A stretch of DNA of 64,000 nucleotides from a virus. Under the pieces are notes generated by a model. That model ran no database searches. It was not told where the DNA came from and saw only the letters and a program-made list of their open reading frames with translations. Positions within the stretch are counted from its first letter, which is position 1, and every line of letters begins with the position of its first letter. Made by a program: the position numbers and the translations under genes. Positions 32,533 through 56,586 of the stretch are shown here, in pieces. Location: IMG/VR virus record IMGVR_UViG_2162886007_000107, positions 172,431-236,430 of that record. One strand, given 5' to 3'.

Positions 32533-32541
32533 GGTATGAGC

Positions 32542-33120
32542 ATGGCCGATAAACAACATATGGAATTGTTCTTTGATCGATTCCTCGAATTCAACCTCGA
32601 TCGATTCAAAGACGATCCAAAATGGTTGCCCAAGTTTACTGGGCTGACCTTCAACATGTTGACCATTTCGGATATCACTCCGATCATGGGCAATACCCGT
32701 CGCAACTCGGCAGTCTTCTCTGCTGCCCGTCGCTTCCGCGGTCTCAACCAGTCTTGGACTCCAGCCAAGGCCGAAACCGATCTGAAGCTGTACAAGCCAG
32801 TCACTCCTGATGCACTGCCAAGTGTCGACAAGCTCTCTGAGCAAGTTGAAGCTGGCGTGTACTTCTACGTTGACGGTCAAGACGTTAAAGTTGGTGTTGT
32901 AATTGCCAACGGCGTCGAAGCAGGTCAACAAGCCGCTGCTGTGGAATCCACCCTGCGTGCTGCTCTGGTCTACGACATCCCAACGGTTACCGTCGCTGGC
33001 GTTGGTAACAGCGTTGCACTGGTGGGCGACTCCTACGAGGGCTCCCTGGTCTGGGCAATCGGTCAGGAAGCTATCGAAGTCATCCCTGATACCGACTACG
33101 GTCAACTGGTAGGTAAATAA
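32542..33120 (+). CDS. Virion-type protein, paralogue of the 60187 gene, 192 aa
   Basis: N-terminus MADKQHMELFFDRFLEFN aligns with MAIPNRQLFLDRFIEYN of the 60187-60759 product (LDRF, E[FY]N, then GLTF/GLTL, TISD/TITN). Both continue with a beta-rich centre and a similar length (192 and 190). The second copy heads the tail-fibre block, so a structural role is likely. ATG 32542 chosen over ATG 32536 because GGGAAGG is then 8 bases away and the start matches the paralogue. C-ending codons imply high expression. Confidence 0.85.
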   Translation: MADKQHMELFFDRFLEFNLDRFKDDPKWLPKFTGLTFNMLTISDITPIMGNTRRNSAVFSAARRFRGLNQSWTPAKAETDLKLYKPVTPDALPSVDKLSEQVEAGVYFYVDGQDVKVGVVIANGVEAGQQAAAVESTLRAALVYDIPTVTVAGVGNSVALVGDSYEGSLVWAIGQEAIEVIPDTDYGQLVGK

Positions 33121-46504: not shown

Positions 46505-47017
46505 ATGAAACTGATTAACTCTGATCTGCGTACCTTCATCGATGCTTTCGGTATTGAAGGTGTTCGTCTGGTAGAAGCCTTCAATGTAGATATCTACATG
46601 CTGGATGATGCAACCGCCCAATCCTTGAACCTGGGTGAAGTTGGTGCGATGACTGCTGGTAACTGGTTCCGTAAAGACGGTGAAGCTGTTGCCATGATGT
46701 TCTTCAACATGGACCGCATTGCCGCATCGGTTGATCCACTGACCCGTCATATCAAAGGTTCGGTCTCCAAAATCTTCTGCTCCTACTTGGTGCATGAACT
46801 GACCCACGTTCAACAAATCATCGACGGTCGTATGAACCAGAAAGATGGTAAGTTGATCTGGGAAGGCAAGGTTTGGAAATTCAAGAACGATGGCTCGGCA
46901 GAGTACTACAACTACCCGTGGGAGCAGGAAGCCCACATGGCTCAGTTCACTTACCAGTGTGATGGTGATGTGAAAGCCGCTCGTAAAGCTCTGAACAAAC
47001 TGGCTAAAGCCGCTTAA
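46505..47017 (+). CDS. HExxH metallopeptidase-like protein 1, 170 aa
   Basis: Contains H97-E-L-T-H101 in YLVHELTHVQQ, the zinc-binding catalytic motif of zincins. Further on, LIWEGK and YPWEQEAH (137-144) provide acidic residues (E140 or E142) fit for a third zinc ligand. These elements recur in the next gene. The 41-45-residue spacing is compatible with gluzincin-like enzymes. Small phage zincins may cut host or phage proteins. Substrate unknown. ATG after AAGGGACTAAAA. First gene of an early operon. Confidence 0.78.
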   Translation: MKLINSDLRTFIDAFGIEGVRLVEAFNVDIYMLDDATAQSLNLGEVGAMTAGNWFRKDGEAVAMMFFNMDRIAASVDPLTRHIKGSVSKIFCSYLVHELTHVQQIIDGRMNQKDGKLIWEGKVWKFKNDGSAEYYNYPWEQEAHMAQFTYQCDGDVKAARKALNKLAKAA

Positions 47018-47027
47018 GGATAAGCAA

Positions 47028-47597
47028 ATGAAGTTTGAGAATTTCAACATTACTCTGTTCCGGGCAATGTTTGGTAGTGATGTTTATGACCTTGTTAAAC
47101 ACCTTGACTTTACGTTCAAGGTTACTAACAACCCAGTCAAAAATTTCAAGACCCTTAGTCCGGCGCATACCACTTGGTATGTCAACGAGGATGGCAAGAA
47201 CTGCATCATAGTTGAGTACAACATGCACCAGGTAATGGTGGCAGCCCAATTGGAGGGTCGCAGTAAAGGAGACTATTTGCGGGCATATCGCTGTGGTGTC
47301 TTTGCTCATGAACTCAAGCATGTGATTCAGATGTTGGATAGTCGTCTGTCAGGTAATAAGAAACACATTATCTGGGAAGGCAAGAAGTATCCAATGAAGC
47401 CAAGGAATCACTGGAAGTATTTGCAACAGCCTTGGGAGACTGAGGCTTTTGTAGCTGGGTACGTAATCACTTACGGGATCAGCGAGCAAGCAGCAATTAA
47501 ACTCTACCATGCAGCGGTCCACCGTGCGCGTCCTGCGTACATCGTTGTTTGGGATTGTCTTAAAGCCCTATTCGGGAAGGAACAGAAAAATGGCTAA
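47028..47597 (+). CDS. HExxH metallopeptidase-like protein 2, 189 aa
   Basis: Paralogue of the preceding protein: H94-E-L-K-H98 in FAHELKHVIQ, IIWEGKKYPM, and QPWETEAFVAG. All putative zinc residues are kept. It has an additional C-terminal basic/aromatic region (RARPAYIVVWDCLKALFG). Lower C-ending codon use than copy 1 suggests weaker expression. Ten bases from copy 1. Confidence 0.77.
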   Translation: MKFENFNITLFRAMFGSDVYDLVKHLDFTFKVTNNPVKNFKTLSPAHTTWYVNEDGKNCIIVEYNMHQVMVAAQLEGRSKGDYLRAYRCGVFAHELKHVIQMLDSRLSGNKKHIIWEGKKYPMKPRNHWKYLQQPWETEAFVAGYVITYGISEQAAIKLYHAAVHRARPAYIVVWDCLKALFGKEQKNG

Positions 47598-48057
47598 CGT
47601 AACTGGTTATCGCGCTACCACCACTTTCCGCTACTTGGATCAATCTGACTTCTGCGACCATGTTTCTCATGGCGATGTCAGCAATGCGGTTGGCGAGTTT
47701 TACGAAGACGATAGTTTCGGCCCAGTTGGTATTTATATCGTCTGTGCTGCTTGCCGTGATAAATGTTTGGAATCTCAGGGTAATGAACCTAAAGTTTGCC
47801 ACGACTGCCGTATGACTGTCTTGCATAAAGACACCATCACCTGGAAGTGGTATGACTTCGATTCCAGACAAGGTGACGAGCCGCTCGTGATCTGCAATGG
47901 TTGCTGTGTTCTCCCTACTCACATTGCGCGGGTAGATAACGACACTCGTAACTATCGCGAAGAAATGGGCTACGAAGATGAAGATGACCGCGATGACGAT
48001 GATCAAGATGATGATCGCGATCGTTTCGATGTAGAAGACGAGCTTCTCGGGATGTAA
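47590..48057 (+). CDS. Cys-rich protein with acidic tail, 155 aa
   Basis: ATG 47590 overlaps the previous gene by 8 bases. Cysteines occur as CAACRDKC (about 53-60), CHDC (about 70-73) and CNGCC (about 103-107), a spacing that could form one or two zinc-binding sites. Residues 125-150 are almost entirely Asp/Glu/Arg (DEDDRDDDDQDDDRDR), resembling nucleic-acid-mimicking or charged tails. Function unknown. Confidence 0.82.
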   Translation: MANVTGYRATTTFRYLDQSDFCDHVSHGDVSNAVGEFYEDDSFGPVGIYIVCAACRDKCLESQGNEPKVCHDCRMTVLHKDTITWKWYDFDSRQGDEPLVICNGCCVLPTHIARVDNDTRNYREEMGYEDEDDRDDDDQDDDRDRFDVEDELLGM

Positions 48058-48059
48058 CA

Positions 48060-48134
48060 ATGAAATACAAAAAGCCCGGCAAGTTAAAGCACTTGTACTT
48101 GTTGTTAAGAAGACTCTTTTCCAAAGATGCGTAA
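48060..48134 (+). CDS. Possible micro-protein, 24 aa
   Basis: ATG two bases after the previous stop opens MKYKKPGKLKHLYLLLRRLF..., a very basic, amphipathic peptide ending before the terminator. CGGGAT lies upstream. Too short for confidence, but the position is typical of this genome. Confidence 0.35.
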   Translation: MKYKKPGKLKHLYLLLRRLFSKDA

Positions 48135-48145
48135 TAAGGTTAATA

Positions 48146-48195
48146 CCTCCTATCTCCCAAGTGGGAGATAGGAGGATAACTTGTTTCTTTTTTTT
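48146..48195 (+). terminator. Terminator between convergent operons
   Basis: Perfect 13-bp stem CCTCCTATCTCCC (48146-48158) and 48163-48175, AAGT loop. The plus side is followed by TTGTTTCTTTTTTTT. The minus-strand fibre operon ends at 48199, so the hairpin may serve both. Confidence 0.88.
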
Positions 48196-48198
48196 GCT

Positions 48199-49536
48199 TT
48201 AGACTTCTTCGATGATTGGTCTCCAACCAGCGTAGGTTTGAGTGCCGTTTAAAGCAACATACCAGCCAGCCAAAAGTTGACGGTTACCTGCGTTGTCAGC
48301 ATCGTTGTAGCCACGAACCAAATGAGCACTGTTACCAGTGATAATTTCCTGACACCAGGTCATTACACCAGCGCCTGCTGAGGTAGCTTTACTGGTAGAA
48401 AGCCCCAGTTCAGCATCCGTGTAAGCAGCCCAACGTGGATAAGCTTGCACCTCTGGCTGATTCAACGATACACCGCCGTATACGGGGTATATGAGGTCGT
48501 TAAACGAACCACCTGTGGCAATGGTGCCATAACCAGCAGGCTCGCTAGCAGCGCCTGTAGGAAGCCTCAGGGTATGTGCTTTACCATTGATCTGGAACTG
48601 TGTCGTCCCTTTGGTAATACCCAAATTATTCATTGCTTCCCATGTCATGCCATGACGCAGAGCTTTCTTCGGCATGTACACAGTCTTGCCTTTATAACGA
48701 TACTTCAACCAGGTGGTGTTAGCATTCGTTACAGAACCAATGGAACCCATACCAACCAAGGACGTCAGTGCAGCAACAGTAATGAAGTCTGCTTCAGCTA
48801 CTTCCCCATAGAACAAATCTTCAGGAGGAAGTTCACCAATGAATTCCAACACAGGACGGAAGCCATAAACATCCAACGTACCTTGTCCGTTACCTTCACT
48901 AGCATTAGCGTCATTGATAATGGTGTGCCGGGCAATTGGATTAAGACTTGTGCCAGCAGAGTAATCCCAGCCACGAGCAGACAAAGCAGTAGTAATGCTG
49001 GTATGTTGGTTTTTACATACCGAGATCACACCTCTTTGTCCAATCAAGTTGGGCGCTGTTAGCAAACCTAGATCTCCTGCGGTGTAATACGACCACACAT
49101 CAGCAGAAGGACGATCGGGAGCAGAAAAAATTGGCCACAGATATTGATCCCACTCACCGCCACCGTTGTTGTTCAGGATGGAAGAGAAAGGGTCAATAGA
49201 CATACCAGACATCAGACGGACCTTGTAACCTAATCCGCCGATAAGAACTTGCTTACCTGTCAGCAAAGAAGCTGCCTTTAAAGCAGCGACTGTTGTGCCA
49301 TAACGCAATGGTTTACGTGCAATGTAAAACGTCTTGCCTGCATCGATGTATTTCAACCAACCAGCTTTATCGTTGATCGGTGTCCCAGAGGTCAAGTTTA
49401 ACAAACTAGCCAATGCAGGACCATCAATCAGATCATCAGAACTCACCCATCCTTGGAATGGTTTACCTGCCACTACGGCAGGAGGGACAAACGGGAGCAC
49501 TCCGGTACTCCCAACAGAAATCAATTGTTCTATCAT
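48199..49536 (-). CDS. Tail-fibre/adhesin with two GWRPVLEL-type domains, 445 aa
   Basis: Start ATG 49536 gives MIEQLISVGS, the start style of this block; a longer frame upstream is unsupported. Two homologous domains: the first with WLKYIDAGKTFYIARKPLRY and YGFRPVLEF, the second with WLKYRYKGKTVYMPKKALRH and the terminal AGWRPIIEEV. Each domain is about 200 residues, beta-rich and Gly/Asn-rich, as expected of a receptor-binding tail protein. Nine such domains occur in seven genes here. No enzyme motif. Confidence 0.85.
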   Translation of the reverse strand: MIEQLISVGSTGVLPFVPPAVVAGKPFQGWVSSDDLIDGPALASLLNLTSGTPINDKAGWLKYIDAGKTFYIARKPLRYGTTVAALKAASLLTGKQVLIGGLGYKVRLMSGMSIDPFSSILNNNGGGEWDQYLWPIFSAPDRPSADVWSYYTAGDLGLLTAPNLIGQRGVISVCKNQHTSITTALSARGWDYSAGTSLNPIARHTIINDANASEGNGQGTLDVYGFRPVLEFIGELPPEDLFYGEVAEADFITVAALTSLVGMGSIGSVTNANTTWLKYRYKGKTVYMPKKALRHGMTWEAMNNLGITKGTTQFQINGKAHTLRLPTGAASEPAGYGTIATGGSFNDLIYPVYGGVSLNQPEVQAYPRWAAYTDAELGLSTSKATSAGAGVMTWCQEIITGNSAHLVRGYNDADNAGNRQLLAGWYVALNGTQTYAGWRPIIEEV

Positions 49537-49546
49537 GAAATGGCAC

Positions 49547-50005
49547 CTATGCCGCCATAGCAACAGGCTTTGGCAAAGTTGGATTCTTAACGATACGGTA
49601 CACGTTAACACCGGCCATGATTACTTTCTTCTTCCATGGGGTTACTTCTAGCACATCCATTGACTCTTTCAAGATAGCGTCAATTTCTTTGCGTGTAACC
49701 GGTACTCTGGTTTCAACTCCATTTACCAACTCAATGATGTAGTAAGTAGTACAGAGCTTGTCATGCAAAGTGGTGCATTGAGTGTACTCGCCAATCGGAG
49801 GAAGCAACCACCACAGCCAACGTGGGATAGTAGCGCCATCCGTTTGAAAGCCTGTCTCAACAGTGACGTAGCGTTTGGAGTTCTCTACGCCAATGTAATA
49901 ATTAAACCCAGGAACAGTGTCCCAAAGATCCTTCTTATTAATCGCGCTCGCAAGTTTGTTGTAACGCAACTGCTCTTCAGCGCTAAACCGTGTGAATGCG
50001 CTCAT
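49547..50005 (-). CDS. DUF1353-family phage protein, 152 aa
   Basis: TDGATIPRWLWWLLPPIGEY followed by ...TLHDKLC, with C-terminal helices (RKEIDAILKESM, KKVIMAGVNVYRI), matches the DUF1353 pattern (DGAS/T-IP, then HD). The H-D pair is intact. The family is common beside phage structural genes; its role is unclear. ATG at 50005 chosen (ATG 50008 adjacent), with GGAG upstream. Confidence 0.78.
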   Translation of the reverse strand: MSAFTRFSAEEQLRYNKLASAINKKDLWDTVPGFNYYIGVENSKRYVTVETGFQTDGATIPRWLWWLLPPIGEYTQCTTLHDKLCTTYYIIELVNGVETRVPVTRKEIDAILKESMDVLEVTPWKKKVIMAGVNVYRIVKNPTLPKPVAMAA

Positions 50006-50031
50006 CATTAAGCTCCGTGCAAGTGTTCGGT

Positions 50032-50661
50032 CTATACCCAGGGCTGGTATCCAGAAACCCAGATAAGAAGAGGACGCCAACCGTTAGAAGCAAAGGTGGT
50101 ATCCATGTTCTGATTATAGAGCGTTGTGTATTCGCCCTTAACTCCACGCGTGTAATACTGGAATTGGTTGTAGGTTTCGGTAATGTAGTTACTGACACCC
50201 TGACCAGCCGTGTTTTCTGGACCTATACCAATATCGTCATAGCTAAGGTTTGCCCAGCGGATTGGTGGATTTTGCCCATTCTGCAATTTACCACCAACAA
50301 TGATGCCAGACATAATCCTCATCCAATCGCTAGTATTGCCGTCTAAACCAGTAAAAGCCTTAATCATCCAGACACCACCCGCAATGTTCACATTCTTGCC
50401 GTACAGCAAGTTAGCGCTTTGCATGGTGCGATAAGAAACAGAATGGCGCAAAGGTTTCTGAGGAATGGCGTAAACGGTGTTGCCCTCGCGAAGAATCATC
50501 CATTGGATGCTGTCTCCTCCAGGCATTAACGTCCCCATCGACCCGGCACCTACAAGTGTGGACAAAGCAGACGCAGTAATAAAGTCGGCTGGATCAACTT
50601 GTACAAAAATTGGTTTGGGAGGAGTACCCTCAGTTGGGTTACTTATTAGCGCTTCGATCAC
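50032..50661 (-). CDS. Tail-fibre protein, single GWRPVLEL-type domain, 209 aa
   Basis: GTG start, MIEALISNPTEG, AAGGAG upstream. One domain: FITASALSTLVGAGSMG, VYAIPQKPLRHSVSYRTM, and the end SNGWRPLLIWVSGYQPWV, which extends past the usual terminus. The shortest member of the family. Confidence 0.83.
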   Translation of the reverse strand: MIEALISNPTEGTPPKPIFVQVDPADFITASALSTLVGAGSMGTLMPGGDSIQWMILREGNTVYAIPQKPLRHSVSYRTMQSANLLYGKNVNIAGGVWMIKAFTGLDGNTSDWMRIMSGIIVGGKLQNGQNPPIRWANLSYDDIGIGPENTAGQGVSNYITETYNQFQYYTRGVKGEYTTLYNQNMDTTFASNGWRPLLIWVSGYQPWV

Positions 50662-50684
50662 GGTAAAACTCCTTCAGGACTATC

Positions 50685-50703
50685 CTCCCCCAACTAGGGG
50701 GAG
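50685..50703 (-). terminator. Hairpin between minus-strand genes
   Basis: CTCCCCC (50685-50691) pairs with GGGGGAG (50697-50703), 5-base loop. Located after the DUF4376-like gene in the direction of transcription; no T-tract. Confidence 0.5.
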
Positions 50704-50729
50704 AATAACCTGTTTACTTAAGCGCTTTA

Positions 50730-51386
50730 TTACGCGGTGAAGAAATCTTCTTCTGTTGGCAGGGTCGGAAGTTCTTCAATGGTGGTGGCGTCACGAGCAG
50801 CGTCTTTCACGTCCCAAGTTTTCTTGTAGCCAAGGTTAGCAGCAGTAAATGCGGCGTTAGCCACTTCTACCATTTCAGCTGCACTGATGTCTACCACAAC
50901 GTTTTCATAGACGCGGAACGAGAAGGTTTGTTCGACGTTTGCTTCCACCATTTCTTTAGCAATGATGCGCAACCCAGTCAAGTTAGCGCGGTCGGCATTG
51001 CGAATCTGAACGTGATAAACGTTCTCGCCGAAAGTGTGAGGGAAGCCACGATCGAACATAGCGATACGCATGGTTTCAGCCTGAGTCTGCAACAGAGCTT
51101 TAGCGGTAGCCAGTTTCTCGGCCATCTCGACTTCACTGAAAGTACGAGAAATCCAAGTCTGACGCCATTCGCCATTAACTTCTTCAGGTGGGCCTTCAGT
51201 TACAACATCATTCACTGGAGGAGAAACTTCGGTCACAACTTCCAAGCCGAACTCGATCAGAATTTCAGCAGTGCTGGTTGGACCAAAAGAAGTATTCGGT
51301 GCAAAGGCCGACAGATCGGTCAGGAACAACGGATACGTGCCGGATTCAGAATGGATCAGGCGGGTTTGACGGGTTACTGTGGTCAT
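50730..51386 (-). CDS. DUF4376-like tail-associated protein, 218 aa
   Basis: Contains EWRQTWISRTFSEVEMAEKL, then a helix, a FGENVYHVQIRNADRANLTGLR segment (quoted in part: VYHVQIRNADR) and a C-terminal helix. This order is typical of DUF4376-type proteins that accompany phage tail fibres. A role in fibre assembly is inferred from family and position. Higher C-ending codon use than the neighbouring fibre genes. Confidence 0.72.
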   Translation of the reverse strand: MTTVTRQTRLIHSESGTYPLFLTDLSAFAPNTSFGPTSTAEILIEFGLEVVTEVSPPVNDVVTEGPPEEVNGEWRQTWISRTFSEVEMAEKLATAKALLQTQAETMRIAMFDRGFPHTFGENVYHVQIRNADRANLTGLRIIAKEMVEANVEQTFSFRVYENVVVDISAAEMVEVANAAFTAANLGYKKTWDVKDAARDATTIEELPTLPTEEDFFTA

Positions 51387-51398
51387 GAATTGTTCTCC

Positions 51399-52304
51399 TT
51401 ACAGAACTAGTTCAAAGAGTGGACGCCAGCCGTGTTGAGGGTGTACTGCGGCTGTAGTCAGGCTGACGTTAAGCAAATCGGGGTTTGTCCCGCTACCACG
51501 GTTAATGCAAGTACTGGTTTGCAAGTCTGTGGAGAAGGTAATCCATCCGGCGTTAGCAATGTCATCCATTTGCCGGATACCCAATGTATCTGGATATGCG
51601 CGTGCTTGGAAAACATAAGGAAGAATCAGATCGTATTCGCCACCAACCTGATCAGCTGCCGCACCACTGGTACTGGACATTACTGCACGAGACGTAGGTA
51701 CTCGCATGATGAAAGAATGGTCACCCTTCGTTACTCCTTTGGCTTGAGGGATAGTACCAAAGGTAGTTTTAGCGTAGGGAGCCCAATCCGCACTTGGGAA
51801 GTTACCGTAGATCACACCGGCACGATACAACAGCTCCCAGGTCAGGTTGGTATAGATAGCCTGGCTTGCGATAAAGAGGATCTTCCCTTTATACACAAAC
51901 TTAAACCAACCTAGGTTAACGTCGGTGTTCTCGGTAGCAGAGCTAGGAATAGTTCCGACAAAGTTTTTACACTCTTGGGTCGTGAACAAATCAGACATTG
52001 CAAGTTTGCCGAAATAACCGAAGTTCCAATCACCACGATTAAGTACCTGAGGTCCCGGACCGGTGTATGGCATGTAAGCCAATGCCTTGTTTGGTGTCAA
52101 AGCTACGTCGGTTCCTTTACGAGAAGCTACGCGATAGTAGTACAGCTGATTACGTACCGCGGTATCGTCTGTGTAGGTCAGAGTGCCGCCGGGAACGACT
52201 ACCAATGGAGCTGGTAACGCGCCATCAGCAATCGGCGAAGCAGACCGATAGATCGTGTAATCATCAGCCGCATTTGAATCGGTCCAATCAATTTTGACGG
52301 GCAT
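51399..52304 (-). CDS. Tail-fibre protein, FN3-like N-domain plus GWRPVLEL-type domain, 301 aa
   Basis: Residues 1-80 look like a fibronectin-III-type domain (KIDWTDSNAADDYTIYRS, LTYTDDTA, YYYRVAS). The rest is the family domain, with DWNFGYFGKLAMSDLF, KGKILFIASQAIYTNLTW and HGWRPLFELVL at the end. The FN3-like part may act as spacer. One of three consecutive genes with this layout. Confidence 0.84.
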   Translation of the reverse strand: MPVKIDWTDSNAADDYTIYRSASPIADGALPAPLVVVPGGTLTYTDDTAVRNQLYYYRVASRKGTDVALTPNKALAYMPYTGPGPQVLNRGDWNFGYFGKLAMSDLFTTQECKNFVGTIPSSATENTDVNLGWFKFVYKGKILFIASQAIYTNLTWELLYRAGVIYGNFPSADWAPYAKTTFGTIPQAKGVTKGDHSFIMRVPTSRAVMSSTSGAAADQVGGEYDLILPYVFQARAYPDTLGIRQMDDIANAGWITFSTDLQTSTCINRGSGTNPDLLNVSLTTAAVHPQHGWRPLFELVL

Positions 52305-52315
52305 TTAACCCTCCG

Positions 52316-53269
52316 TTAAGCAGGAATGTATTCAAGAACAGGCACCCAGCTAACCCAAGCTCCAGAAGCCGCACCAGTAATGGCCCGGGGGAACACATCA
52401 GACCAGTTGGCGTTACTAACCGACCAGTTGTTAGTAGTGTTGAAATGCTGGGTAGCCATTAATGGATAAGGAACACCAGAAGCATCGCCCCATTTAAAAG
52501 GCTGTAGTAAAGGGACGTCAGCAGCAAGAATAGACGTGGTCATAGAGCACATCAACTCACACCACTCGCTTCCTTTAAACGTGCTACGATCAGGAACGTT
52601 TTGATCCGTTGCCAAAGTACTGTTTTTAGGAATACGTACCAAGAAACTATCGCTACCGACGGTGACGACCTTTTTCTGGTTAACTGGGGCCGAGATAACA
52701 GGACTGGCTCCAACCGTTGTCAGGTTAAATGGAGCAGCCCCTGGGCCATCAACACCGTAAACCAATCCCAAGTTATAAATCTGAGACCAGGTGGAAGTGC
52801 CTGCTACGGAGAACGTGTTGTTGGGGAAAAACAAGATTTTGCCATTAAAGACAAACTTGTACCAACCGGTCATTGTGCCATCGGCCGGAGCAGATCCCAG
52901 CTGATTACTGGCATTTACTGCTGTACGCAATCCAGAGATAGTAAACAGCTGGGCAGCGGGCACAAAGCCCATATACCCAGCATTCCAGTTACCGCGCAAT
53001 ACGGTATTGCCGCCTGGCCCTGTCTTGGAGAAGTTTCCGTACAACATGCACTGACTGTATTGAGTATTGGACCCGGCCTTAACGGCCTCAACCATGTAAT
53101 ACCGAGTGCTTCGATCTGGGACCGTAGTGTCGGTATACGTGACGGCTGTTGGATCCAACACCGCTTTGGTGCCTGGCAATGTTGCTGGAGTGAACGCCGT
53201 ATCGGACCAGTAGATCGTCAACGTGTCAGGAAGGCTGGACATTGCAGGCCAATCAATTTTGATAGACAT
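52316..53269 (-). CDS. Tail-fibre protein, FN3-like N-domain plus GWRPVLEL-type domain, 317 aa
   Basis: Same architecture as its neighbours: KIDWPAMSSLPDTLTIYWS N-domain, then NWNAGYMGFVPAAQLF, NGKILFFPNNTFSVAGTSTW and a divergent end SWVPVLEYIPA. Divergence is greatest in loops between conserved strands, as expected if the loops contact receptors. ATG behind AAGGAGAT on the minus strand. Confidence 0.84.
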   Translation of the reverse strand: MSIKIDWPAMSSLPDTLTIYWSDTAFTPATLPGTKAVLDPTAVTYTDTTVPDRSTRYYMVEAVKAGSNTQYSQCMLYGNFSKTGPGGNTVLRGNWNAGYMGFVPAAQLFTISGLRTAVNASNQLGSAPADGTMTGWYKFVFNGKILFFPNNTFSVAGTSTWSQIYNLGLVYGVDGPGAAPFNLTTVGASPVISAPVNQKKVVTVGSDSFLVRIPKNSTLATDQNVPDRSTFKGSEWCELMCSMTTSILAADVPLLQPFKWGDASGVPYPLMATQHFNTTNNWSVSNANWSDVFPRAITGAASGAWVSWVPVLEYIPA

Positions 53270-53278
53270 GGAATCTCC

Positions 53279-54229
53279 TTAGCTTTCGATCAATTCCAGT
53301 ACTGGCCACCAGCCGTAGAGTACACCGTTCCAGGTGGCCGCAGCTCGGTTGGCAGGACCGGTACGGTTAGCAGTACCGTTACCACGAACCAAGTTGTTGG
53401 CGGAGTTACCAGCGGCAATACGTTCTTGAACGACACTGCCAGAAGTCACGCCAGTGGAGGACATGAACAGGTCGGCTACAGTAGCTTGTTGAACGTTAGC
53501 CATTCGTTGCAGATCTGGGCAATACATCGACAATGGATAGACAATGTCATTCCATTCGTTAGGCCACAATTCAGTAGGCTCGGTAACGCTTGGTGTAACA
53601 GGATAACGTGCCAAAGTATCGTCAAAGCCAGTCATGCAGCGCACACGGTAGAGTTCACCGCCAATGGTTACCTTAGCACTTTGGTTAACGTTAGCCCCGG
53701 CGTTAGTTGGGCCAGGACCATCAACACCGTAAACCAGCCCGAGGTCATAAAGAGTTTTCCAACCAATGTTACCGCAGATAGGACCATTAGGAACGTACAA
53801 CACTTTCCCGTTACGAATCCATTTATGCCACAAAGGACCTGGTTGGTTAACTACACCAATGGTCAGACCTACAGCAGTACGCAGATCAGTGGTATTGATA
53901 AACTCGCCAGAGGTCAGTGTACCAAAGTAACCATAATTGAAATCACCAATCTGCAAACTAACAGGCCCAGCACCTTTACGAGGGACAGCCCGAATAGGGA
54001 TGTTGTCGGTGCTTTGTTTATCGCCGTTGCTATTGATGGTGGTTTCAAACACGTAGTAGTACAACGTGTCGCGAACAGTGGTAGTGTCGGTGTAAGTGGT
54101 TTCGTTATTGGTCAATGTCGCAATGGGGTTAGCGAGATTAGAACGATCCAATTTACTGGTACCACGATAGATCTTGGTGGTGAATGTACCTGGAGCATTC
54201 AGGTTAGTCCACTGAAGAATCGTATCCAT
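53279..54229 (-). CDS. Tail-fibre protein, FN3-like N-domain plus GWRPVLEL-type domain, 316 aa
   Basis: N-domain with LQWTNLNAPGTFTTKIYRG and YYYVFET; then DFNYGYFGTLTSGEF, NGKVLYVPNGPICGN, LVYGVDGPGPTNAG and the end YGWWPVLELIES. LVYGVDGPG also occurs in the 52316 protein, so these two are especially close. Start behind GGAAGTAA. Confidence 0.84.
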   Translation of the reverse strand: MDTILQWTNLNAPGTFTTKIYRGTSKLDRSNLANPIATLTNNETTYTDTTTVRDTLYYYVFETTINSNGDKQSTDNIPIRAVPRKGAGPVSLQIGDFNYGYFGTLTSGEFINTTDLRTAVGLTIGVVNQPGPLWHKWIRNGKVLYVPNGPICGNIGWKTLYDLGLVYGVDGPGPTNAGANVNQSAKVTIGGELYRVRCMTGFDDTLARYPVTPSVTEPTELWPNEWNDIVYPLSMYCPDLQRMANVQQATVADLFMSSTGVTSGSVVQERIAAGNSANNLVRGNGTANRTGPANRAAATWNGVLYGWWPVLELIES

Positions 54230-54241
54230 TATTTACTTCCT

Positions 54242-55246
54242 TTAAGCGACATACGAGCCGGTGATAGTAAAAGCCTTAAGGCCCGGAGACTCCGCGGTAC
54301 CTCTAGGTGCCGATGGTTTAAGAGCCTGATTAACAAAACTGTAAGTCGGGTTAGGTAGCTGATAAGGCCAAGTTTTTTGTCTTGGAGCTGCCGGTTTTTG
54401 AGCCGGGCTACCTGTCCACTGCCGAACATCATTAATGACTGGAGCAAAAGGACCTGGGGTTCTGTACAACAGGGTATATGGATCTTTAGCCTCTGTATCA
54501 GGAATCAGCTCCAGCACTGGACGCCAGTAATGGCCACTAATGCCTGATACTCGATCTGTTTTAAGGATCGTTCTGTAAGCACCCATGATCACACCACTAG
54601 CGCCATCACCACGTACGTTACACTGGTTAACGTTGTTGGACATGGTTTCCATGGTAACGGAGTCAGGGCTAGACTGACTCCACCCTAAGGCGTTATAGGA
54701 CATTGTAGCAAACTTTGGGGTAATGTTGCCATCAAGCGAAATACTGCAACGACCCAGCAATTGACTCCATTCACCCGTGTAGTCCCCGACGTTTGCAGGG
54801 GCAACAGGATCAGCAGCGTAACCTCTAACTAGTCGAGGTTTTAATACCCAGAGTTTTTCACCCTCATATTTAGGCATCTGAATGAACTGATGCTTAGGAG
54901 TGGCCAGAGGGTATTTGCCGTTATCGCGCGTCCCATACACCATACCAGCAGCATACAGGTCAGCCCAGGACACGTTACTGCGGAAAGGTCGTTTAGCAAT
55001 GAAGATGACCTTGCCGTTCCAGATGAATTTAAGCCAGTGGTTAGCACCAGGGACCAAGTCTGGGTGGTCGGTACCTTGATACATACCACCCGCACCAGCC
55101 ACCTGGGAAATGCCAAACAGTTGAGTGTCCGTCACTTCACCAAAGTAACCCAGGTTCTGATCACCGCTAAGCAGTGCTTTTGGTCCAGGACCTGAGTTAC
55201 CGATGTAAATAGCTTTACTACCTGTAGTAAGTAGTTGCTCAATCAT
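54242..55246 (-). CDS. Tail-fibre protein, GWRPVLEL-type domain with Pro-rich C-terminal extension, 334 aa
   Basis: MIEQLLTTGS start. Domain marks are QNLGYFGEVTDTQLF, NGKVIFIAKRPFRSNVSW, GMVYG and HYWRPVLELIPD at about residue 245. A further 85 residues, rich in Pro and aromatic residues (PAQKPAAPRQKTWPYQLP), follow and are unique to this member. The extension might bind a partner or be a transferred end. Confidence 0.83.
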   Translation of the reverse strand: MIEQLLTTGSKAIYIGNSGPGPKALLSGDQNLGYFGEVTDTQLFGISQVAGAGGMYQGTDHPDLVPGANHWLKFIWNGKVIFIAKRPFRSNVSWADLYAAGMVYGTRDNGKYPLATPKHQFIQMPKYEGEKLWVLKPRLVRGYAADPVAPANVGDYTGEWSQLLGRCSISLDGNITPKFATMSYNALGWSQSSPDSVTMETMSNNVNQCNVRGDGASGVIMGAYRTILKTDRVSGISGHYWRPVLELIPDTEAKDPYTLLYRTPGPFAPVINDVRQWTGSPAQKPAAPRQKTWPYQLPNPTYSFVNQALKPSAPRGTAESPGLKAFTITGSYVA

Positions 55247-55259
55247 GTTGTTCCCTCCA

Positions 55260-56516
55260 TTAAGGGACTAATTCGAGTACCGGTCTCCAGCCATAACCAG
55301 CATGAGTGGTGTTAGCGATCTGGTACCATACGCCAAGGAATCCAGGATAACCGCGTGTCAACCATCCACCATTAGCACTGTTGGCTTCTTGGCACAAGGT
55401 CAGCTCGCCGTTGCCTGTACTACCAGTCCAACCAACATCAGTATTGGTAAGAGAGTCCCAACGATCAGCAGCTTGTCCCGAATAGTTGACAGTAACGCGG
55501 GAGAAGTAACTGTTATATTCACCACCAGCCGTAGCGCCTGGGTTAGAGGTCGCGCCTGTCATTAAACGAACTTTGTAGTTAAGCCCACCAATGTTAACAA
55601 CCTTCGTACCGTTAACAGCGCCAACGGCATTCAGTTGCTCATATGTAATCGCACCGAAGAAAGGAGTCTTGGCAATGTAGAACGTTTTGCCGTTGTCAAC
55701 AAACTTCAGCCAACCACCGTCCGGTTGGATAGATACTTTACCGGTGTTAGTAACACCAAGAAGGTTGTACAACGCCAGACCACCAATTAAGTTAGCTGCC
55801 GTTACTACACCTCTATAAGGAGATGGAGGAATGGTAGATTTCTTAACAAGTACTGGACGCCAACCGTAATACGTCTGCGGGTTATTAGGCGGCATGTTCC
55901 AGATACCCATGATAGGGTGGTTACCACTGGAATTCTGCCAGTCATTGCCTCGCAAACAATAACCGTTAGCTAAAGTCTCGGCGCAAATAGTGAAAACACC
56001 ATCGCCAAGGTCGGCTCCTCCTGGAGCACCAAGTCCTAACATTGTTCTTGTGTAGTTACCCCAAATGGGGGCTCCACTAATGCCACCACGGTCAGAGTTA
56101 TCATAGATCGCATACATGTAGCGATTCCACTCACCCCCAGCGTTGGACGGCACTGCATTTGCAGAAGAAGAAATTGCACCTGTCATCATTCGACAGATGT
56201 AAACCTCCCCTCTGATAGTAATCTCTTTGGCACCATTGTTGGTGGCCTGCATGATTTGTTCGTAAGTAGTCGCGTAACGAATCGGCTTCTTAGCGATAAG
56301 CAGTTCTAGTCCGCTGTCTTCAATGAAATGAAGCCAACCACCATCCCTATTCATTGTTGCGCCGGGAGTTAACCCGATAAGTGTAGCGAGGGCATCACCA
56401 TAAATAAAGTCAGCTGACTTTGTTATTCCTTTAAACGGAGTCCCTTCCGGAAAAGGTATGTCGGAATTGTCATCAGCTCCCTGTTTATATCCGGTCCCAA
56501 TCAGAGCTTCGATCAT
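55260..56516 (-). CDS. Tail-fibre protein with two GWRPVLEL-type domains, 418 aa
   Basis: MIEALIGTG start. Domain 1: WLHFIEDSGLELLIAKKPIRY, ICRMMTGA, GEWNRYMYAI and YYGWRPVLVKK. Domain 2: WLKFVDNGKTFYIAKTPFFG, YKVRLMTGA, GGEYNSYF and YGWRPVLELVP. The two domains are clearly homologous. It resembles the 48199 protein in having two domains and no FN3-like part. Confidence 0.85.
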   Translation of the reverse strand: MIEALIGTGYKQGADDNSDIPFPEGTPFKGITKSADFIYGDALATLIGLTPGATMNRDGGWLHFIEDSGLELLIAKKPIRYATTYEQIMQATNNGAKEITIRGEVYICRMMTGAISSSANAVPSNAGGEWNRYMYAIYDNSDRGGISGAPIWGNYTRTMLGLGAPGGADLGDGVFTICAETLANGYCLRGNDWQNSSGNHPIMGIWNMPPNNPQTYYGWRPVLVKKSTIPPSPYRGVVTAANLIGGLALYNLLGVTNTGKVSIQPDGGWLKFVDNGKTFYIAKTPFFGAITYEQLNAVGAVNGTKVVNIGGLNYKVRLMTGATSNPGATAGGEYNSYFSRVTVNYSGQAADRWDSLTNTDVGWTGSTGNGELTLCQEANSANGGWLTRGYPGFLGVWYQIANTTHAGYGWRPVLELVP

Positions 56517-56549
56517 CTTGTGATCCTTTAAAGGAAGAAACGAACACTA

Positions 56550-56573
56550 GGAACCTCCCCGTAAGGAGGTCCC
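56550..56573 (-). terminator. Hairpin after the long fibre gene
   Basis: GGAACCTCC (56550-56558) pairs with GGAGGTCCC (56565-56573), one mismatch. On the minus strand it lies after the stop at 56587 and is followed by a T-containing stretch. Confidence 0.6.
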
Positions 56574-56586
56574 TGTGTCCATGAGG

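Follow-up and report, generated by a model that had tools for sequence, protein, structure and literature searches.

Nine domains of very likely C-type-lectin fold in seven adjacent genes of an EL-like jumbophage are candidate binding modules of the virion

The initial annotation of this DNA described an expanded receptor-binding domain with nine copies in seven genes, and the expansion is confirmed here: open reading frames and HMM searches agree on nine homologous domains of about 200 residues in seven adjacent genes on the minus strand, at positions 48199-56516 of the window (the whole stretch of 64,000 nucleotides that was analysed). On balance, we favour the reading that these domains are binding modules of C-type-lectin fold (FGE/Mtd type) that are built into the virion, exchangeable, present several to a particle and probably associated with the head. 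Each gene would specify one surface protein consisting of a short N-terminal docking element and one or two lectin-fold heads, the docking element being an M-x-E-x-L-L peptide for A, B, F and G and, for C, D and E, an FN3 module. The heads would contact glycans or proteins of the host or the environment, and the presence of several paralogues in each particle would allow one virion to show several specificities. The diversity of these proteins would arise by gene duplication and by exchange of whole genes between phages at fixed slots, involving neither a retroelement nor recombination between copies.

The architectural variants that had been described are also borne out. Two domains are found in the products of gene A (55260..56516 (-), 418 aa, putative CLec-fold domains at residues 25-228 and 231-418, N-terminus MIEALI) and gene G (48199..49536 (-), 445 aa, domains at 24-235 and 239-445), the latter resembling Noxifer gp079 and most likely starting at the ATG at 49536, behind an SD sequence, rather than at the GTG at 49611. 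Gene F (50032..50661 (-), 209 aa), which starts with GTG, encodes one plain domain (15-204), and in gene B (54242..55246 (-), 334 aa, resembling SPN3US gp145/148/151) a single domain (31-250) is followed by a Pro-rich C-terminal extension. The remaining three genes place an FN3 or FN3-like module before the domain: C (53279..54229 (-), 316 aa, FN3, domain 98-316, resembling SPN3US gp149/152/146), D (52316..53269 (-), 317 aa, FN3-like, domain 96-317, resembling gp150/147) and E (51399..52304 (-), 301 aa, FN3-like, domain 94-301, resembling gp153/150).

Two other genes, assigned by Pfam, lie within the cluster: a DUF4376 gene (50730..51386 (-)), kept there in every EL-like relative examined, and a DUF1353 gene (49547..50023 (-)), whose product has weak similarity to SPN3US gp157 (E 1e-4). 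Upstream, a 1193-aa collagen-like/tail-fibre family protein (phrog_3904; 56587..60168 (-)) directly precedes gene A in EL-like relatives, and beyond it lies a small protein (60187..60759 (-)) whose domain corresponds to the N-terminal part of phrog_21620, where it forms one chain with a CLec domain. The window holds two paralogous small proteins of this kind (phrog_18233), at 32536-33120 (+) and 60187-60759 (-), and the fusion of the phrog_18233 domain to a lectin-fold domain in phrog_21620 hints at an adaptor role. Separately, two adjacent paralogous genes at 46505-47017 and 47028-47597 (24% identity, phrog_10499) carry the HExxH-like motifs HELTH and HELKH, and their products are possibly metalloprotease-like.

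An HMM seeded from the nine window copies and broadened with relatives finds all nine in the window with i-E values of 1e-37 to 1e-67, and a broader profile over the whole 236,430-base contig gives nine matches, all in the cluster and none elsewhere. Pairwise identity among the paralogues is 16-40%, indicating that the copies are old. Yet each of the seven finds the same set of independent PHROG families, phrog_1062, 3589, 16120 and 21620, which puts their homology beyond chance; the phrog_1062 matches (E 1.7e-14 to 1e-131, seven of seven proteins) assign them to the phiKZ gp83 family. Pfam holds no recognised match for the domain family, and the PSA_CBD and ETX_MTX2 matches were disregarded, their scores being far under the cut-off. 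Near the C-terminus of the domain, the alignment contains invariant R-G and W-x-P-x-x-E columns.

The domains very likely adopt the C-type-lectin/FGE fold, a call that draws on the consistency of the structural matches obtained for protein A together with these invariant C-terminal columns, and not on one strong score. The best model obtained was the AlphaFold2 model of protein A (pLDDT 85.8), built from 19 sequences, its own and related ones. In Foldseek against the PDB the top matches, at E about 0.1, were PvdO, formylglycine-generating enzyme and TvpA, a DGR protein. With VIA-align, nearly every row above Z 4.5 was a protein of C-type-lectin/FGE fold (PvdO 7.2, TvpA 6.9, Mtd variants 6.0-6.6, CEL-IV 5.7, TaqVP 5.6, and also EgtB and FGE); every score was under 8 and no single one is decisive. 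Both domains of A reach this fold separately, and we take the R-G and W-x-P-x-x-E columns to match its C-terminal motif. In the gene C model, the N-terminal part matches the FN3 domain 1k85 (Foldseek prob 0.97, TMt 0.57), and D and E can be aligned with C across this part; the loops of the model are of low confidence and it gave no lectin match of its own. A sequence-profile search of PDB chains with the family found nothing, and hhalign of the family profile against the Mtd sequence was null (prob 1.3%). That sequence methods are blind to the fold can explain why a survey of 224 jumbophage genomes reported FGS/C-type-lectin domains to be absent (PMC7824862).

A DGR origin of the cluster was considered and rejected. 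No reverse transcriptase (PF00078) was found in the window contig, which is possibly incomplete, or in 19 related records, in a search whose control worked; these 20 records include eight named phages with complete genomes and Noxifer as filed in IMG/VR. On the records searched, then, the cluster is not read as a DGR. A search for a TR/VR repeat pair, which covered positions 47000-61000, gave no repeat longer than 40 nt there.

With 63% identity to the enzyme of Pseudomonas phage EL and 55.6% to that of Erwinia phage RisingSun, the DNA polymerase marks this as a giant phage (jumbophage) of the Pseudomonas EL type. Searches of IMG/VR gave ten related contigs via A and five loci via C, mostly on shared contigs, and 118 phage records contain relatives of gene C, with as many as eight loci in a genome. 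In EL-like phages the cluster runs from the small protein through the fibre-family protein, genes A to E in turn and DUF4376 to the F slot, DUF1353 and the G slot; one relative (L022) is without B-E. In Noxifer, A and G adjoin each other between an RNAP beta gene and DNA polymerase, and B-C-D-E stand at a separate locus adjoining a tail-fibre gene, from which it follows that the window cluster unites two sets. The number of domain copies is 1 in EL, 2 in Psa21, 3 in 201phi2-1 and D6, 8 in PhiPA3, RVTF4 and Noxifer, 9 in PA1C, SPN3US and the window phage, and 4-8 in the EL-like IMG/VR relatives.

Where these proteins sit in the particle can be judged from SPN3US, in which gp145-153 are arranged in tandem as three triads, each repeating the architectures seen in B, C and D/E. 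The domain HMM matches gp145-153 at 9e-15 to 1e-26, and the single window proteins B, C, D and E match triad members with E down to 7e-33, so that by homology and by the same order of gene types B-E belong to SPN3US paralog family B; for A and F, SPN3US gives no match, and for G a weak one only. The triads, tandem repeats of a B-C-E cassette, lie at L046:11827-40347 (106.8-135.3 kb), where a separate family with a phrog_1037 N-terminal domain gives 17 matches. Gene numbers in the SPN3US paper equal 266 minus the RefSeq tag, a mapping that we inferred and that fits the 17-gene run. Mass spectrometry identified all of the roughly 20 members of family B (gp83, 138-154, 161 and 237) both in virions and in tailless particles, and the SPN3US authors found no function for the family (PMC5694885). 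The results for a further tailless mutant, 255(am107), differed in three proteins only, among them gp237, which was reassigned to the tail (PMC10052503). The weak relative of the DUF1353 neighbour, gp157, is also a head protein (PMC5694885).

By homology to these head proteins, the likeliest site of attachment for at least B-E in the window phage is the head (or neck) rather than the tail tip. The SPN3US evidence is that of a single distant phage and places the proteins in the head without distinguishing outside from inside; the low-abundance members could belong to the neck. The receptor toolbox of the initial annotation survives in part: the modelled fold, with its resemblance to Mtd and TvpA, would suit a binding protein, but tail receptor-binding is not the default, since tailless mutants of SPN3US retain the homologues of B-E in their heads. 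The proposal of several paralogues in one virion gains support from relatives, in that 201phi2-1 gp452 and gp456 are both annotated as virion proteins confirmed by mass spectrometry and SPN3US gp145-153 come from a family of which every member was seen in the virion (PMC5694885).

The strongest rival, although we regard it as rather improbable, is that the SPN3US head location is not transferable and that the window proteins are tail receptor-binding proteins at the fibre tips or baseplate. A tail-fibre-family gene precedes the cluster in all EL-like relatives, the clusters of Noxifer and SPN3US likewise lie beside or near a tail-fibre or tail protein gene, Mtd itself is a tail protein, and the exchange pattern described below is host-range-like. 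What speaks for the head instead is that SPN3US gp138-154 are kept in two kinds of tailless heads, from which the fibre or baseplate candidates gp168-170 are lost or strongly reduced (PMC5694885, PMC10052503).

A head location would also fit proteins that lie inside the head, are ejected with the DNA and act in the host cell, but we consider this very unlikely. Architectures of FN3, lectin-fold and Kelch domains are typical of outward binding proteins, and outward display of the window proteins is what we would expect. Giant-phage heads do contain many ejected proteins (PMC5694885); the nine processed SPN3US head proteins, however, are listed apart from family B (PMC10052503 Table 3), which neither excludes nor supports internal maturation.

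Turning to selection, genes A to E, gene G and the relatives' F-slot protein give dN/dS values of 0.04-0.10, which are rough owing to high dS; the F copy itself is known only from the window and is left out of this set. The open reading frames of the cluster are intact in relatives, and every copy tested is under purifying selection, so a situation in which one copy is used and the others decay fails on sequence. These data also bear on the idea, raised by the initial annotation, that the cluster is an archive for recombination, here taken as silent cassettes that recombine into one expressed gene. The tandem arrangement of the paralogues would suit such an archive, yet most copies are preceded by an SD-like sequence and start codon, all are intact and, where testable, under purifying selection, long DNA repeats are absent from the cluster region, and the signature of mosaicism is confined to two phages: of 1615 pieces of 40 residues, 24 were clearly nearer another paralogue, all from the divergent L017 and L021, for which orthology is loose. 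No such piece was seen in six close relatives, where gene conversion among paralogues thus left no signal and the anticipated swaps among copies did not appear. We find the archive scarcely credible. Two alleles of D (L015/L023 versus the rest, around residues 235-275) looked swap-like at first; the polymerase tree, however, has L015 as the sister of L023, and vertical descent explains the pattern.

What does exchange is whole genes. Between the window and Noxifer (gp078), A is about 63-64% identical but the DNA polymerase only 29%; L021 and a second gene of L022 share 68% identity against 28% for the polymerase; and conversely L016 and L022 share 46% in A against 92%. For A, the grouping of the polymerase tree is rejected in AU tests (p 1.4e-6 and 1.7e-47). 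As L022 carries two A-type genes, part of this conflict could be paralogue sorting; the Noxifer and L021 cases need transfer, and hence whole genes moved between deep lineages. The sequence comparisons thus show whole genes swapped between distant phages at fixed slots, with no exchange among copies in the close relatives.

The slots themselves accept different occupants. A lectin-fold protein fills the F slot of the window phage, where L015, L016 and L025 have an unrelated protein of 241 aa; the G slot of L025 holds a Kelch-only protein; and among orthologues of A or G a Kelch C-terminus is present in some and absent in others. By eye, the 241-aa protein resembled a jelly-roll, a candidate we dropped, as no search backs any fold for it. 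The usual place of G yielded no G gene in L014; a single-domain copy stands there instead on the opposite strand (L014:16188-16883), an arrangement suggesting that the G slot also changes by inversion or replacement.

Slot occupants share the N-terminus M-x-E-x-(L/M)-(L/I/M), and 38 of the 40 proteins have glutamate as their third residue. Among the 135 SD-preceded open reading frames of the window, M-x-E-x-L-L occurs in three, exactly A, B and G; the peptide-bearing starts are at 56516, 55246, 50661 and 49536 (A, B, F and G), and C, D and E are without it. Two more such starts in the contig were set aside, one in an apparent antisense frame and one in a 34-codon frame. The peptide is also seen on unrelated bodies, a Kelch protein and one of unassigned fold (L025:14815-15750 and L015:16717-17439). 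We infer that M-x-E-x-L-L is a candidate virion docking tag.

These observations bear on a purely structural role, in which the copies would decorate the capsid or neck without binding anything, cementing or stabilising the large head, and their variability would be neutral drift. Several of the families are classed as head and packaging by PHROG, and gp141 of family B is present in more than 300 copies per capsid (PMC5694885). We nevertheless judge such a role unlikely, as copy number in relatives spans 1 to 9, the same peptide precedes Kelch and other unrelated bodies in the slots, and exchange between deep lineages would be odd for cement.

If the lectin-fold proteins are surface binders on the head, a broader and more tentative proposal can be made, namely that jumbophage heads may bear a multi-specific coat of static C-type-lectin-fold adhesins, with a portable N-terminal docking peptide plugging unrelated bodies into the same slots, traded between genera. 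Such a coat would be the duplication-and-exchange counterpart of DGR tropism switching, on the head and not the tail, and the pluggable bodies would comprise lectin-fold pairs, Kelch propellers and a third fold. The binding-module reading would join two gaps, the fold missed in the 224-genome survey (PMC7824862) and the SPN3US head family for which its authors found no function (PMC5694885), part of which would gain a fold already known from a phage receptor binder. With a related gene A exchanged between deep lineages, the role of giant-phage head paralogues becomes testable as surface binding.

Among known systems, the closest arrangement is that of SPN3US family B (gp145-gp153), which has the same triads of domain, FN3 plus domain and FN3 plus domain, nine copies and HMM E values to 1e-26. 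Its B-type genes carry a phrog_1037 N-terminal domain of about 150 aa, whereas the window genes carry the short M-x-E-x-L-L peptide instead, and the window contig has one weak phrog_1037 match only. Direct homologues of A and G are phiKZ gp83, EL gp155, 201phi2-1 gp452 and gp456 and PhiPA3 gp080-083, virion proteins of which some have Kelch C-termini; in most phiKZ-like relatives examined the phiKZ gp83 family lies between RNAP beta and DNA polymerase, and EL has one copy against nine in the window phage. The fold of the A model resembles that of Mtd, a surface binding protein and tropism determinant of Bordetella phage BPP-1, and those of TvpA and TaqVP (Z 5.6-6.9), but compared with Mtd and the DGR variable proteins there is no detectable sequence similarity and no reverse transcriptase, and many static genes stand in place of one hypermutated gene. 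Tentaclins also join a C-lec domain to Ig-like modules and are proposed receptor binders; they have the C-lec domain N-terminal to Ig-like anchors and can be DGR targets (PMC10743442), whereas in the window FN3 comes first and no DGR was found. Although T4 Hoc is a single gene without lectin-fold heads, unlike the window cluster, it too is an Ig-like string displayed on the capsid and proposed to sense the environment (PMC10385173), which would make it a likeness of role only.
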